Of a DNA stretch of 64,000 nt, positions 36,015 to 41,042 are shown piece after piece (positions within the stretch are counted from its first letter, which is position 1; each line of letters starts with the position of its first letter). The notes beneath the pieces are model-generated. The model worked only from the letters and a program-made list of their open reading frames with translations, made no database searches and was not told where the DNA came from. Both the position numbers and the translations under genes were made by a program. Source of the stretch: Pseudanabaenaceae cyanobacterium SKYG29 (GTDB taxonomy: Bacteria > Cyanobacteriota > Cyanobacteriia > Pseudanabaenales > Pseudanabaenaceae). The DNA lies in the NCBI GenBank assembly GCA_025055675.1, contig JANWWT010000001.1, positions 124,001-188,000 on the forward strand. The letters are read 5' to 3'.

Positions 36015-36083
36015 GCAACATTACAGGACTTTACCGCTTCTGCCAAAACACAAACTCCCCCCTACCTTTTAGAACCAATCGAT

Positions 36084-36098
36084 AATATAGTAATATAG
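36084..36098 (+). promoter_or_regulatory. probable operator of the ArsR-family repressor, site 1
   Basis: AATATAGTAATATAG, a pair of AATATAG half-sites eight bases apart, located 22 bases before the repressor start. The reverse complement of site 2 (37997-38011) matches it at 14 of 15 positions. The position suggests autorepression. Confidence 0.7.
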
Positions 36099-36119
36099 GA
36101 GAATTGCTTACCAGCTGAG

Positions 36120-36524
36120 ATGGAAGGTAAACCCAGGTCTTTGTCCAGTGCAGCCCCTTTAGCAGAGGAGTGTGTGGTATCTAAACTTACGCCTGAATCC
36201 CTGGGACTGATGGCAGACTTTTTCAAAGTATTGTCAGAAGTCAGTCGCCTGCAAATTATATGTTCCCTCAAACCCGGCGCAAAAAACGTCACAGAAATTA
36301 TGCAGGAGACAGAGCTAGGACAGGCGAACGTGTCCAAGCACCTGAAGATTCTTACCCAAGCAGGTATAGTTGCCAGGGAACAGCGGGGAGTGTGTGTTTA
36401 CTATCGAATTGCTAACCCATTTTTGTTTGACCTCTGCGACCTAGTTTGTAAAGCCCTCAGTCTGCAGATAGAACATCACAGTCAGCAGGTGCAGGAATTA
36501 TCCCAGTTAGGACAAAGAAATTAG
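36120..36524 (+). CDS. ArsR/SmtB-family repressor, persulfide-sensor type (BigR/SqrR/SuoR-like)
   Basis: Winged-helix repressor of 134 residues. The recognition helix region is LGQANVSKHLKILTQAGIV and the wing REQRGVCVYYRI. Cysteines stand at 18, 48, 92, 106 and 110. C48 in LQIICSL and C106 or C110 near the C-terminal helix lie where BigR and SqrR carry the cysteine pair that forms a polysulfide bridge, so reactive sulfur is the likely signal. The metal motif ELCVCD of SmtB/ArsR is absent. Neighbours are a sulfide:quinone oxidoreductase and a persulfide dioxygenase, which fits. A matching operator pair is present. It most resembles SuoR of Synechocystis by context. Confidence 0.88.
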   Translation: MEGKPRSLSSAAPLAEECVVSKLTPESLGLMADFFKVLSEVSRLQIICSLKPGAKNVTEIMQETELGQANVSKHLKILTQAGIVAREQRGVCVYYRIANPFLFDLCDLVCKALSLQIEHHSQQVQELSQLGQRN

Positions 36525-36553
36525 CAGGGGGAAACCTTTCCCCCAATTTGATT

Positions 36554-37864
36554 CTAGTAACGATGGACTAGGCGATTAATGGGTTTGAAGATGTCCGCCT
36601 CAAAGGCAGCGCCCTTCAGCATCCGATTCCAATATAGCCAGGGCAAAATATGTACCTTGGCTAGGTACATAGAATAGCGTTCCTTGGTGGGATCGAGGGG
36701 AAAGGAAGGAGATAATTTGCCATCATAGGCGAATTCCGCCATAATCGCCGAGTTATAGCCCGTAATTAAAGGACAGCAGGTGTAACCATCGTACTGGGCA
36801 GGTAGGGATCGCCCGCGCATTGCCGCCAGTAAGTTTTCCGCCAGGACAGGGGATTGTTTGCGGGCAGCAGCAGCAGTCTTAGAAGTAGGTAGAGAGGAGG
36901 CATCTCCTAGGGAGAAAACGTTGGGGTAGCGGTTGTGTTGCAGTGTGTGCTTATTGACATCAACCCAGCCCCCAGGACCAGCTAAGGGGCTTTCCTTGAT
37001 AAAATCAGGAGCGCTCATGGGGGGAGTGACATGGATCATGTCGTAGTGGATGCTCACTTCCTCTACCCCATTTTCTGTGGTTACATCAAAAATAGCTTCC
37101 TGGGTATCTGCCTTGATCTCCTTGAGGTTGTGCTTGAACTTAACCTTTATGCCCCGCCGAGCTACTATCCGATCCAAGGCAGCAGAGTAAGCAGGAACAG
37201 CAAACATACTCGCCCCTGCCGTACAAAACATGACGGTAGTGTTTACACCCACACCACTCTTGCTTTTGAACCAGTCGTCTGCCATGTACATAATCTTTTG
37301 GGGTGCACCACCACACTTAATGGGAGTAGCAGGGTAGGTAAAAATGGCATTCCCTCCTTTGAAGTGGCGAATGGTTTCCCAGGTGTAGGGAGCATAGTCC
37401 TTGGAGTAGTTACTGGTCACTCCCCCTTTGCCGATCGCTTCCTTCAACCCCTTGATCAAATGCCAATCAATCTGAATCCCTGGACATAGTACCAAGTATT
37501 CATACTCAATTCCCTGACCCGCCTCTGTAATTACACAGTTGCGATCGGGGTCAAGTTTAGCTACCCGTGCCTGTATCCACTTAGTTCCCTTGGGCAACAC
37601 TTCCCTTTGGGGGCGGATGAAGTTAGCGATCGGGGCAATGCCACCCCCCACCAGTGTCCAACCTGGCTGATAGTAATGCTTGTCCGAGGGTTCAATGATG
37701 GCTATGTCCAAACGGCGGTCACGCTTGAGGAGCTGGGCTGCGGCACTAATCCCCGCTGCTCCCCCCCCCACGATGACAATTTGATGCTTTAAGCGGGGCA
37801 GATTGTTGGTCTCGGTCTGAGTTTGCCCTGCTTGGGCTTGCTCGATCGTTGATGTTATGGTCAT
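36554..37864 (-). CDS. sqr: sulfide:quinone oxidoreductase, type II
   Basis: Membrane-attached flavoprotein that oxidises sulfide, passes electrons to quinone and yields a persulfide. FAD-binding IVIVGGGAAGISAAAQLLKR lies at about residue 29. Cysteines C127 (LCPG), C184 (PIKCGGAPQK) and C363/C364 (YTCCPLITGYN) are present; the KCxGAPQK and CPL(I/V)TGYN contexts are those of the type II (mitochondrial SQOR-like) group. The C-terminal FKPINRLVHRY region is amphipathic for membrane contact. 436 residues. It starts in the divergent region that holds operator site 2 and so is likely repressed with the dioxygenase operon. Confidence 0.93.
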   Translation of the reverse strand: MTITSTIEQAQAGQTQTETNNLPRLKHQIVIVGGGAAGISAAAQLLKRDRRLDIAIIEPSDKHYYQPGWTLVGGGIAPIANFIRPQREVLPKGTKWIQARVAKLDPDRNCVITEAGQGIEYEYLVLCPGIQIDWHLIKGLKEAIGKGGVTSNYSKDYAPYTWETIRHFKGGNAIFTYPATPIKCGGAPQKIMYMADDWFKSKSGVGVNTTVMFCTAGASMFAVPAYSAALDRIVARRGIKVKFKHNLKEIKADTQEAIFDVTTENGVEEVSIHYDMIHVTPPMSAPDFIKESPLAGPGGWVDVNKHTLQHNRYPNVFSLGDASSLPTSKTAAAARKQSPVLAENLLAAMRGRSLPAQYDGYTCCPLITGYNSAIMAEFAYDGKLSPSFPLDPTKERYSMYLAKVHILPWLYWNRMLKGAAFEADIFKPINRLVHRY

Positions 37865-37996
37865 TTCTAAACTAGTTCATTAAAGGACGTAATACCCCTT
37901 GTACCATATTCCCACATGGTTATATTGTCCCACTTTCTAAAGAAATCCTTAAATTTTTCTCACCCCTCTTGACAAGCATATGATATGATAGTTGCA

Positions 37997-38016
37997 CTAT
38001 ATTACTATATAGTAAT
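37997..38016. promoter_or_regulatory. probable operator of the ArsR-family repressor, site 2
   Basis: Contains the perfect 16-base palindrome ATTACTATATAGTAAT (38001-38016), and 37997-38011 read on the minus strand is TATATAGTAATATAG, 14/15 identical to site 1. It lies in the 198-base divergent region between the sulfide oxidoreductase gene and the persulfide dioxygenase gene, 47 bases before the latter. TTGACA at 37969-37974 could be a -35 box, but no well-spaced -10 follows. Confidence 0.75.
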
Positions 38017-38062: not shown

Positions 38063-38755
38063 ATGTTGTTCCGGCAGCTGTTTGACTATGAGACCTACAC
38101 CTATACCTATTTGATTGCTGACCCTCAGACGCAGGAGGCGATGCTGGTAGACAGTGTATTGGAGCAGGTCGATCGGGATTTGCAGCTAATCAAGGAGTTA
38201 GGTTTGACGTTGCGCTATGCAGTGGAAACCCATGTTCATGCTGACCATGTTACAGGGGCGGGGCGCTTGCGGGAGTTAACGGGTTGTCAGGGTGTAGTGC
38301 CCAAGGGAGCGGATGTAGCCTGTGCCGATCGCTTCCTCGGTGATGGGGATGTGTTGGTGATGGGGTCGATTCGCCTAGAGACGATCGCTACTCCTGGTCA
38401 CACGGATAGCCATGTAGCTTATCTGGTCAATGGTACCCATTTGCTCACGGGGGATGCCTTGTTTATTCGCGGCTGCGGGCGCACAGATTTCCAAAGTGGG
38501 GATGCGGGTGCTCTCTACGATGTAGTAACGCAACGCCTGTTCACCCTGCCCGATGAAACTTTGGTCTATCCTGGGCATGACTATCGCGGGCATACGGTAA
38601 GCACGATCGGGGAAGAAAAGAGGTACAATCCCCGTTTCCAGGGACGTACCAGGGAGCAATTCATTGAGTTTATGGCTAACTTGAATTTGCCTGATCCTAA
38701 GAAGATGGCAGAGGCTGTGCCTGCTAACATGCAGTGCGGTAAAGTAGCTGCCTAA
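38063..38755 (+). CDS. ETHE1-like persulfide dioxygenase (Blh-type metallo-beta-lactamase fold)
   Basis: Mononuclear-iron enzyme oxidising glutathione persulfide to sulfite and glutathione. The 230-residue protein has ETHVHADHVTGAGRLRELTG, the second His in TPGHTDSHVAYL, the iron Asp in LLTGDALFIRGCGRTDFQ, YPGHDYRGHTVSTIGEEK and NPR, which are the ETHE1/Blh signatures. It uses the persulfide made by the neighbouring sulfide oxidoreductase. GGGAGG lies eight bases before ATG. The rhodanese gene starts 28 bases later, and the operator lies just upstream. Confidence 0.94.
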   Translation: MLFRQLFDYETYTYTYLIADPQTQEAMLVDSVLEQVDRDLQLIKELGLTLRYAVETHVHADHVTGAGRLRELTGCQGVVPKGADVACADRFLGDGDVLVMGSIRLETIATPGHTDSHVAYLVNGTHLLTGDALFIRGCGRTDFQSGDAGALYDVVTQRLFTLPDETLVYPGHDYRGHTVSTIGEEKRYNPRFQGRTREQFIEFMANLNLPDPKKMAEAVPANMQCGKVAA

Positions 38756-38783: not shown

Positions 38784-39335
38784 ATGGTAACGACACAACA
38801 AAACTTAAATCTCGTCACAGCCGCAGAACTAAAGGAAAAACTTGACCAAGATCAGGTACTCCTAATCGATGTACGGGAGCCAGGGGAGTTTAGCGCTGAG
38901 AGAATTCCAGGGGCAAGATTGATCCCTCTTTCTAAATTCGACCCCAAGCACATCCCTGCAACTGACAAAGAAGTGGTGCTCTACTGTCGCAGTGGCAAAC
39001 GATCGGAGATGGCAGCCCAAAAACTTCTCGCAGCTGGTTGGAATTCTGTCACGAACTTACAGGGAGGAATTACCAGTTGGAAGCAAGCAGGCTTACCCAT
39101 TGACAAGGATGCCAATGCTCCCATTAGTTTGATCCGCCAGGTACAAATTGTGGCTGGTTCCTTAGTCCTAACTGGCACGCTTTTGGGCGCTTATGTCAAT
39201 CCCCGCTTCCTCTTCCTCAGTGGTTTTGTGGGAGCAGGTCTAGTGTTTGCAGGGGTAACTGATACCTGTGCTTTGGGTATGCTTCTATCCAAATTGCCCT
39301 ACAACCAGAGGGCGGGTCAGTCGTGGAATTCTTAA
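38784..39335 (+). CDS. rhodanese with C-terminal DUF2892-like membrane hairpin
   Basis: Sulfurtransferase of 183 residues. The rhodanese domain (about 10-108) has DVREPGEFSAERIPGA and the active-site loop YCRSGKRSEMA with catalytic Cys in LYCRSGKR. The remainder is a pair of membrane helices (VAGSLVLTGTLLGAYV, FLFLSGFVGAGLVFAG) of the DUF2892 type seen in YgaP-like proteins. It would move sulfane sulfur between glutathione persulfide and thiols at the membrane, in line with the neighbours. GAGGAGG precedes the start. Probably one operon with the dioxygenase and the exporters. Confidence 0.92.
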   Translation: MVTTQQNLNLVTAAELKEKLDQDQVLLIDVREPGEFSAERIPGARLIPLSKFDPKHIPATDKEVVLYCRSGKRSEMAAQKLLAAGWNSVTNLQGGITSWKQAGLPIDKDANAPISLIRQVQIVAGSLVLTGTLLGAYVNPRFLFLSGFVGAGLVFAGVTDTCALGMLLSKLPYNQRAGQSWNS

Positions 39336-39420: not shown

Positions 39421-40245
39421 ATGGAACAACAACAGATTTTGGGTTATGTTTTGGCTTCTCTGATTGGCATTTCTTTGGGTCTAATCGGCGGAGGGGGGTC
39501 TATATTAACCGTCCCTGTGTTGGTTTATGTAATGGGGGTAAATGCTACCCTGGCTACAGCCTATTCCCTCTTTATTGTGGGCATCACAGCTTTGGTGGGT
39601 TCTCTCACTTATTTCCAGAAGAAATTGGTTAGTATTAAAACTGCTATTGTTTTCTCCATTCCAGCTTTTACTTCTGTTTATTTGGTGCGTAGATTTGTCA
39701 TTCCTGCTATTCCTAAGGAAATTTTCAGTCTTTATGGTTTTACACTAACTAGGGATATTCTATTGATGTTGGTGTTTGCGGGTTTGATGATCTTTGCTTC
39801 TGTATCTATGATTAGAGATGAAAAAGGTAAGGGACCAGAAGTAACAGAGGAAGAACATGAGCCAGAGTTTAATTTGCCTCTCATTTTTGGTGAGGGGGTA
39901 GTTGTGGGAGGATTAACTGGTTTCGTGGGAGCAGGGGGTGGTTTTATGATCATTCCTGCCCTGGTTTTGTTTGCTAGACTGCCTATGAAGATGGCGGTGG
40001 GTACTTCTCTCTTAATCATTGCTGCTAAATCCTTGATTGGTTTTATTGGAGATGTAACTAACCCTGAATTAACGATCGATTGGGAGTTATTGATTTCCTT
40101 CTCTTTCATTGCTTGTGTGGGAATTTTTATAGGCTCATACCTGTCTACTTTTATCCCAGGAGCAAAGTTGAAGCAGGCATTTGGTTGGTTTGTGGCAGTA
40201 ATGGGCGTTTATATTATTGCTAAGGAAACTCTGCTGGGTAAATGA
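39421..40245 (+). CDS. TauE/SafE family sulfite/anion exporter, copy 1
   Basis: Polytopic membrane protein of about 274 residues with eight hydrophobic helices. Conserved family features: ISLGLIGGGGSILTVPVLVY at the start and VGGLTGFVGAGGGFMIIPAL in the second half, the two pseudo-symmetric glycine-rich motifs of TauE/SafE. In a sulfide-oxidation operon it would export sulfite. ATG 39421 has AGGGGAA upstream; an earlier ATG at 39391 lacks such a site. It overlaps the next, closely related gene by four bases. Confidence 0.9.
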   Translation: MEQQQILGYVLASLIGISLGLIGGGGSILTVPVLVYVMGVNATLATAYSLFIVGITALVGSLTYFQKKLVSIKTAIVFSIPAFTSVYLVRRFVIPAIPKEIFSLYGFTLTRDILLMLVFAGLMIFASVSMIRDEKGKGPEVTEEEHEPEFNLPLIFGEGVVVGGLTGFVGAGGGFMIIPALVLFARLPMKMAVGTSLLIIAAKSLIGFIGDVTNPELTIDWELLISFSFIACVGIFIGSYLSTFIPGAKLKQAFGWFVAVMGVYIIAKETLLGK

Positions 40246-41042
40246 TGGGACAGATTGGGGGCTACTTTCTTGCTTCTCTGATTGGCATATCCCTGGGGTT
40301 AATTGGCGGTGGCGGTTCGATCCTAACGGTGCCAGTCTTGGTCTATGTCATGGGCGTAAATGCTACTCGTGCTACTGCCTATTCCCTATTTATTGTTGGC
40401 ATAACCGCTTTGGTGGGCTCATTAGATTACTGCCGCAAGCGCTTGATCAGTTGGCAGGCAGCTGTGGTTTTCTCTCTGCCCGCTTTTTCCTCTGTTTTTG
40501 TGGTACGCAAGTATCTGATACCAGCTATTCCCAGGGAAGTTCTAAGAGTAGGGAGTTTCATTCTCACTAAGGATATTTTCTTAATGGTGGTGTTTGCCTT
40601 ATTGATGATATTTGCCTCTGTATCTATGATTAGGGATAGGAAAAATGGCAAGGAGGAGGAGGTATTATCCCTGAACTCGCCTTTAATTGGTGTTACAGGT
40701 TTACTAGTGGGGGGAGTGACTGGTTTGGTGGGGGCGGGAGGCGGTTTTATGATCATTCCTGCGCTGGTGAATTTTGCCCATTTACCAATGAAAAAGGCAG
40801 TTGGTACTTCCCTACTTATTATTGCTACTAATTCCCTCATTGGCTTTATAGGTGACTTAATGAGTCCCACAGAAACAATTGACTGGAATCTCCTCATTTC
40901 TTTTTCTTTCATTGCTTGTTTGGGTATTTTCTTTGGTTCTTACTTGTCTAACTTTATTCCTGGGGCAAGGTTAAAAAAGGGGTTTGGTTGGTTCGTAGCT
41001 GTTATGGCTCTTTACATCCTAGCCAAGGAAATTGCTGGCTAA
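40242..41042 (+). CDS. TauE/SafE family sulfite/anion exporter, copy 2
   Basis: Paralogue of the gene before it, 266 residues. ASLIGISLGLIGGGGSILTV and VPVLVYVMGVNAT are near identical in both, and the second motif VGGVTGLVGAGGGFMIIPAL aligns too. The charged middle loop differs (RDRKNGKEEEVLS against RDEKGKGPEVTEEEH). The pair looks like an old tandem duplication that may work as a heterodimer or have split specificity. Two ATG codons stand at the start (40242 and 40245). Confidence 0.9.
   Translation: MMGQIGGYFLASLIGISLGLIGGGGSILTVPVLVYVMGVNATRATAYSLFIVGITALVGSLDYCRKRLISWQAAVVFSLPAFSSVFVVRKYLIPAIPREVLRVGSFILTKDIFLMVVFALLMIFASVSMIRDRKNGKEEEVLSLNSPLIGVTGLLVGGVTGLVGAGGGFMIIPALVNFAHLPMKKAVGTSLLIIATNSLIGFIGDLMSPTETIDWNLLISFSFIACLGIFFGSYLSNFIPGARLKKGFGWFVAVMALYILAKEIAG

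Follow-up and report, generated by a model that had tools for sequence, protein, structure and literature searches.

An ArsR-family repressor gene and three candidate operators in a cyanobacterial sulfide-detoxification cluster

Sulfide-responsive repressors of the ArsR family are already known, as are cyanobacterial neighbourhoods of arsR and sqr (PMC5061849, PMC11304991, PMC4307280). SqrR of Rhodobacter capsulatus, SoxR/sHdrR of Hyphomicrobium, BigR of Xylella and YgaV have the ArsR fold and targets in sulfide oxidation, and the ArsR protein described here is like them in these respects, in an aligned cysteine of helix 2 and in having a second cysteine in helix 5. The SqrR/SoxR group belongs to another phylum, however, and its two cysteines are 66 residues apart (C50 and C116 in SoxR) instead of 58. 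Among cyanobacteria, SuoR of Synechocystis sp. PCC 6803 (pSYSM; suoS-suoR / suoC-suoT) is an ArsR-like repressor of an sqr gene that binds the shared divergent promoter (PMC4307280). Its identity to the present protein is 37.5% over 66% of the sequence, and a cysteine occupies the position of C106; its locus differs in encoding a type I SQR, a DUF302 protein and a ChrA-like transporter, in its tie to arsenite and in having no pdo, rhodanese or TauE gene. RexT of Nostoc is a further cyanobacterial thiol sensor of the ArsR-SmtB family (PMC8960804), but unlike the present protein it carries vicinal cysteines (C40-C41) in helix 3, senses H2O2 and controls trxA2. In Thermostichales MAGs, arsR adjoining a type II sqr was read as arsenic-related regulation, and the accessible part of that source mentions no operator.

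The window, that is the whole 64-kb stretch of DNA that was analysed, corresponds to positions 124001-188000 of contig C1 in a 2.56-Mb assembly that is 97% complete. It holds the gene cluster listed in Table 1, whose products would form a route from sulfide to thiosulfate or sulfite with export; neither an arsenite transport gene nor another arsenic gene accompanies sqr, pdo, the rhodanese gene and the two tauE genes in the cluster. The sister genome shares this gene order, with sqr alone on the opposite strand, as do several further families of cyanobacteria. The TauE/SafE genes are similar and stand in tandem (39421-41042), and in the sister genome (L033) the second copy is found as fragments alone. 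No second close ArsR is encoded in the source genome, the next one being 32% identical. Judging from these sequences, it is probable that one ArsR protein operates on three operators, those of arsR, of sqr and of the pdo run, as a sulfide-detoxification switch that reactive sulfur would release.

Table 1 Genes, candidate operators and presumed promoter of the cluster (positions in the window)
Feature	Position	Strand	Evidence
arsR, ArsR/SmtB-family repressor, 134 aa	36120..36524	+	HTH_5 and HTH_metalloreg models; C48 and C106 invariant; predicted fold
sqr, sulfide:quinone oxidoreductase	36554..37864	-	close to mitochondrial SQOR; E 1.7e-128 to solved SQOR
pdo, ETHE1-like persulfide dioxygenase	38063..38755	+	near solved bacterial PDO-type MBL protein 4ysb and human ETHE1 4chl
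rhodanese with YgaP-like membrane part	38784..39335	+	sequence models
TauE/SafE exporter 1	39421..40245	+	
TauE/SafE exporter 2	40242..41042	+	
arsR operator core AGAACCAATCGATAAT	36071..36086	+	aligned position of ACTACCGTGTGGTAAT in relatives' arsR promoters; left arm degenerate
15-mer AATATAGTAATATAG, 3' flank of arsR operator	36084..36098	+	exact match; relatives keep flank as ATAATGATAAG or ATAGTAATAAG
sqr operator ATAACCATGTGGGAAT	37908..37923	-	second-best place in window with PDO- and arsR-trained matrices; same place in relatives
second 15-mer TATATAGTAATATAG, one arm of pdo operator and flank	37997..38011	-	sequence match
pdo operator ATTACTATATAGTAAT	38001..38016	+	perfect palindrome over -10; top match in window of PDO-type matrix
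presumed pdo promoter	37969..38003	+	TTGACA 37969-37974 and TATATT 37998-38003; inferred

The assignment of the repressor to the ArsR/SmtB family is based on scores of 47.7 bits with HTH_5 (cut-off 22) and 78.2 bits with HTH_metalloreg (cut-off 55), and its fold, predicted from an alignment, matches the structures of SqrR, BigR and SmtB. Neither C48 nor C106 varies in 47 homologues or in an overlapping set of 29. C48 aligns with C41 of SqrR in helix 2, as expected for a protein of the SqrR/BigR kind; the position of the second cysteine of SqrR and SoxR is occupied by L113/S114, and C106, though in helix 5, lies about two helical turns earlier. The protein scored 40.1 bits with the curated BigR equivalog model NF040642, whose cut-off is 155. 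Given this score and the spacing of 58, the protein may work like SqrR without being filed with SqrR or BigR. Persulfide would then be its effector, as suggested by the gene context and the two invariant cysteines.

The first-pass annotation had drawn attention to a 15-mer upstream of arsR that recurs with one change (14/15) on the minus strand between sqr and pdo, where it overlaps a perfect palindrome; both copies and the palindrome were found exactly as described. It had taken the two copies for a matched pair of operators, and this view has to be revised in several points. Three operators were found, the third being that of sqr, which had been missed. Alignment with relatives further showed that, despite their likeness, the 15-mers upstream of arsR and pdo are not in the same register and pair different parts of the two operators. 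The 15-mer upstream of arsR is mainly the 3' flank of the operator core, since a gapped alignment pairs TAATATAGTAATA of the window with TAATATAGTAATA or TAATATAATGATA of relatives, which places the orthologous core on the 5' side of the 15-mer. The latter includes TATAGT (36086-36091), the likely -10 element of arsR, and AGTAAT (36089-36094), which forms a second half-site.

When a matrix was trained solely on the arsR promoters of other genera, the arsR (36066-36097), sqr and pdo sites of the window took ranks 1, 2 and 3 over 64 kb and both strands. With a matrix from the PDO promoters of other genera, the pdo site came out on top, followed by the sqr site, and the arsR site was at background. 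The pdo operator is the best of the three copies in the window, and 13 further genomes have the same site, as an exact pattern, ahead of PDO. At the presumed pdo promoter the spacer between TTGACA and TATATT is 23 bp, as compared with 17 bp in the sister genome; hence, the promoter may have shifted. The sqr and pdo operators are 93 bp apart in the window and mostly 84-86 bp in relatives; DNA looping between them, considered in view of this regular distance in relatives, was set aside because of the spacing in the window. An element TTTAAGG(A/T)TTTCTTTAGAAAG upstream of sqr (37930-37955), outside the operator, is kept in relatives and is perhaps an activator site. In relatives (L034-L043), the pdo leader downstream of the operator contains a short conserved reading frame of about 24 amino acids, MVxGYLxxFxxxVxxxILxVxGD(T/V), which is absent from the window and whose product has no match in Pfam.

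It could be argued that the repeat is a chance likeness between AT-rich promoter stretches. The arsR copy is indeed AT-rich and overlaps the likely -10, the two 15-mers sit in different registers, and at three mismatches the palindrome pattern is no more frequent in the genome than background (11 places against 9 for the reversed control, or 22 against 18 rows over both strands). On the other hand, a best 15-mer match of at least 14/15 was obtained for only 4 of 1500 Markov shuffles of the intergenic pair (P ~0.003). The whole-genome search proposed earlier gave, at up to two mismatches, the two known copies of the 15-mer and no other in 2.56 Mb, the pattern read backwards giving one match, and the palindrome pattern has a single place at the same tolerance. 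Moreover, the exact palindrome ATTACYATATRGTAAT occurs 24 times in 22 of 388 genomes of the class and its reversed control not once, and the footprint in relatives, conserved across many families, contradicts coincidence, which we therefore regard as highly improbable.

The setting was determined for 22 of these 24 copies. Fourteen stand upstream of PDO, while an arsR homologue follows two of them; one precedes psbA, and one precedes a DUF2892 gene beside arsR on a plasmid of Pseudanabaena sp. ABRG5-3. The remaining four (L089, L090, L091 and L100) fall within open reading frames and were left out of the operator count. In relatives, PDO promoters carry ATTAC(T/C)ATATGGTAAT, which in several overlaps the -10 of TTGAC(G/A)-N16-18-(C/T)ATATT; arsR promoters carry ACTACCGTGTGGTAATATAATGATAAG, with TATAAT inside, and sqr promoters carry ATTACTAATTGGTAGT or near variants. 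In the Synechocystis locus (8.3 kb), the top matrix match, with a score of 9.6, is ATAACTACATAGTTGT in the suoC-suoS intergenic region. This palindrome, which may share the operator form, falls within the promoter region bound by SuoR (PMC4307280), the comparison being made at the level of that region. On the ABRG5-3 plasmid, two strong operators were seen (L234, 3926 and 4589), one upstream of the arsR homologue and the other upstream of the DUF2892 gene, which is followed by a gene for an FAD/NAD(P)-binding oxidoreductase. The ArsR protein of this plasmid is 63% identical to that of the window.

The possibility that the palindrome serves another regulator sharing these promoters, with ArsR binding elsewhere, was weighed against the link between the site and arsR. 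Outside the genus, 38 of the 78 arsR loci show a site no more than 230 nt upstream of the gene, compared with 34 of the 2114 other blocks in these loci, an enrichment that extends over many families. The site also tracks the presence of the ArsR gene: PDO promoters carry it in 21 of 29 genomes with ArsR and in 2 of 10 in which no close ArsR was found. After removal of the training genomes the figures are 18/26 and 2/10 (P 0.011, an optimistic value, as the genomes are related). Those two promoters do speak for a different regulator, and the site is missing from the other 8 of the 29 PDO promoters in ArsR-bearing genomes. A palindrome of this 16-bp size fits an ArsR dimer, and taken together a second regulator seems quite improbable. 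Concerning the effector, SuoR represses an sqr gene and also controls an arsenite transport gene (PMC4307280), and one of its cysteines aligns with C106; C48, C106 and C110 of the present protein could bind a thiophilic ion. With the SuoR-linked genes tied to arsenic, arsenite or another metalloid is kept as a candidate effector of the same operators and repressor, though an unlikely one: five of the 29 homologues lack C110, which speaks against a conserved site of three thiols, and the regulated genes point to a route from sulfide to thiosulfate or sulfite, with export, in a cluster that holds no arsenic gene.

In the preferred reading, with reactive sulfur as the signal, the reduced ArsR dimer would bind an AT-rich 16-bp palindrome, A(T/C)TAC-N6-GTAAT, and occupy three promoters, namely those of arsR (36071-36098), sqr and the pdo-rhodanese-tauE-tauE run. 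Bound there, it would cover the -10 regions, with tight repression at pdo and looser repression at sqr and arsR. On entry of sulfide, reactive sulfur species (sulfane sulfur) would modify C48 and C106, the modified repressor would leave the DNA, and SQR, persulfide dioxygenase, rhodanese and exporters would be made until the signal had been burned off. Weighing against this scheme are the degenerate arsR core, the 23-bp pdo spacer and a cysteine spacing unlike that of SqrR. The first-pass proposal of one regulon comprising repressor, sqr and the dioxygenase-rhodanese-exporter run is nevertheless well supported by gene order and operators conserved in many cyanobacteria, except that sqr, having its own operator, would not be served solely through the pdo site. 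As the same switch precedes the same genes in so many of these organisms, one small repressor very probably controls the whole detoxification set.

A literature search, with subscription papers mostly outside it, found neither this operator nor the layout with three promoters nor the cysteine spacing described; for the operator of a cyanobacterial sqr repressor it yielded just the statement that SuoR binds the promoter region. Cyanobacteria alternate between oxygenic and sulfide-exposed life, and the operator is a candidate DNA code for that switch. With a matrix valid across many families, the sulfide regulon may become predictable from sequence, and the exact sites can serve as probes for binding tests. 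The results also suggest that there is a clade of ArsR proteins whose cysteines are arranged differently and which may be linked to photosystem II genes of the low-oxygen type. All four psbA genes of the sample that encode Leu158 carry an operator-like site upstream (L088, site 1501; L236; L242; L245), with matrix scores of 12.5 to 27.9, whereas none of the sampled Phe158 genes has an upstream site above a score of 5. We take Leu at position 158 of D1 to be the signature of the low-oxygen form and Phe158 that of standard D1. The four genes come from two families and have their sites at different distances, and the sample, which was selected for similarity to one Leu158 gene, includes two loci without a readable signature, so that the link is a lead and not a result. 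A general sulfide/low-oxygen switch of cyanobacteria, with a sensor cysteine pair of new spacing and with control over photosystem II in other species as well, is thus a tentative extension that we hold to be somewhat doubtful. A further operator-like site, ATTACT(A/G)TCTAGTTAT, was noticed at L172 6318-6333, with similar ones at L156 (~6325) and L159 (~6294); that of L172, with an arsR homologue about 2 kb away, lies between genes that, by sequence reading, are acsF-like (oxygen-dependent chlorophyll cyclase) and heme oxygenase-like.
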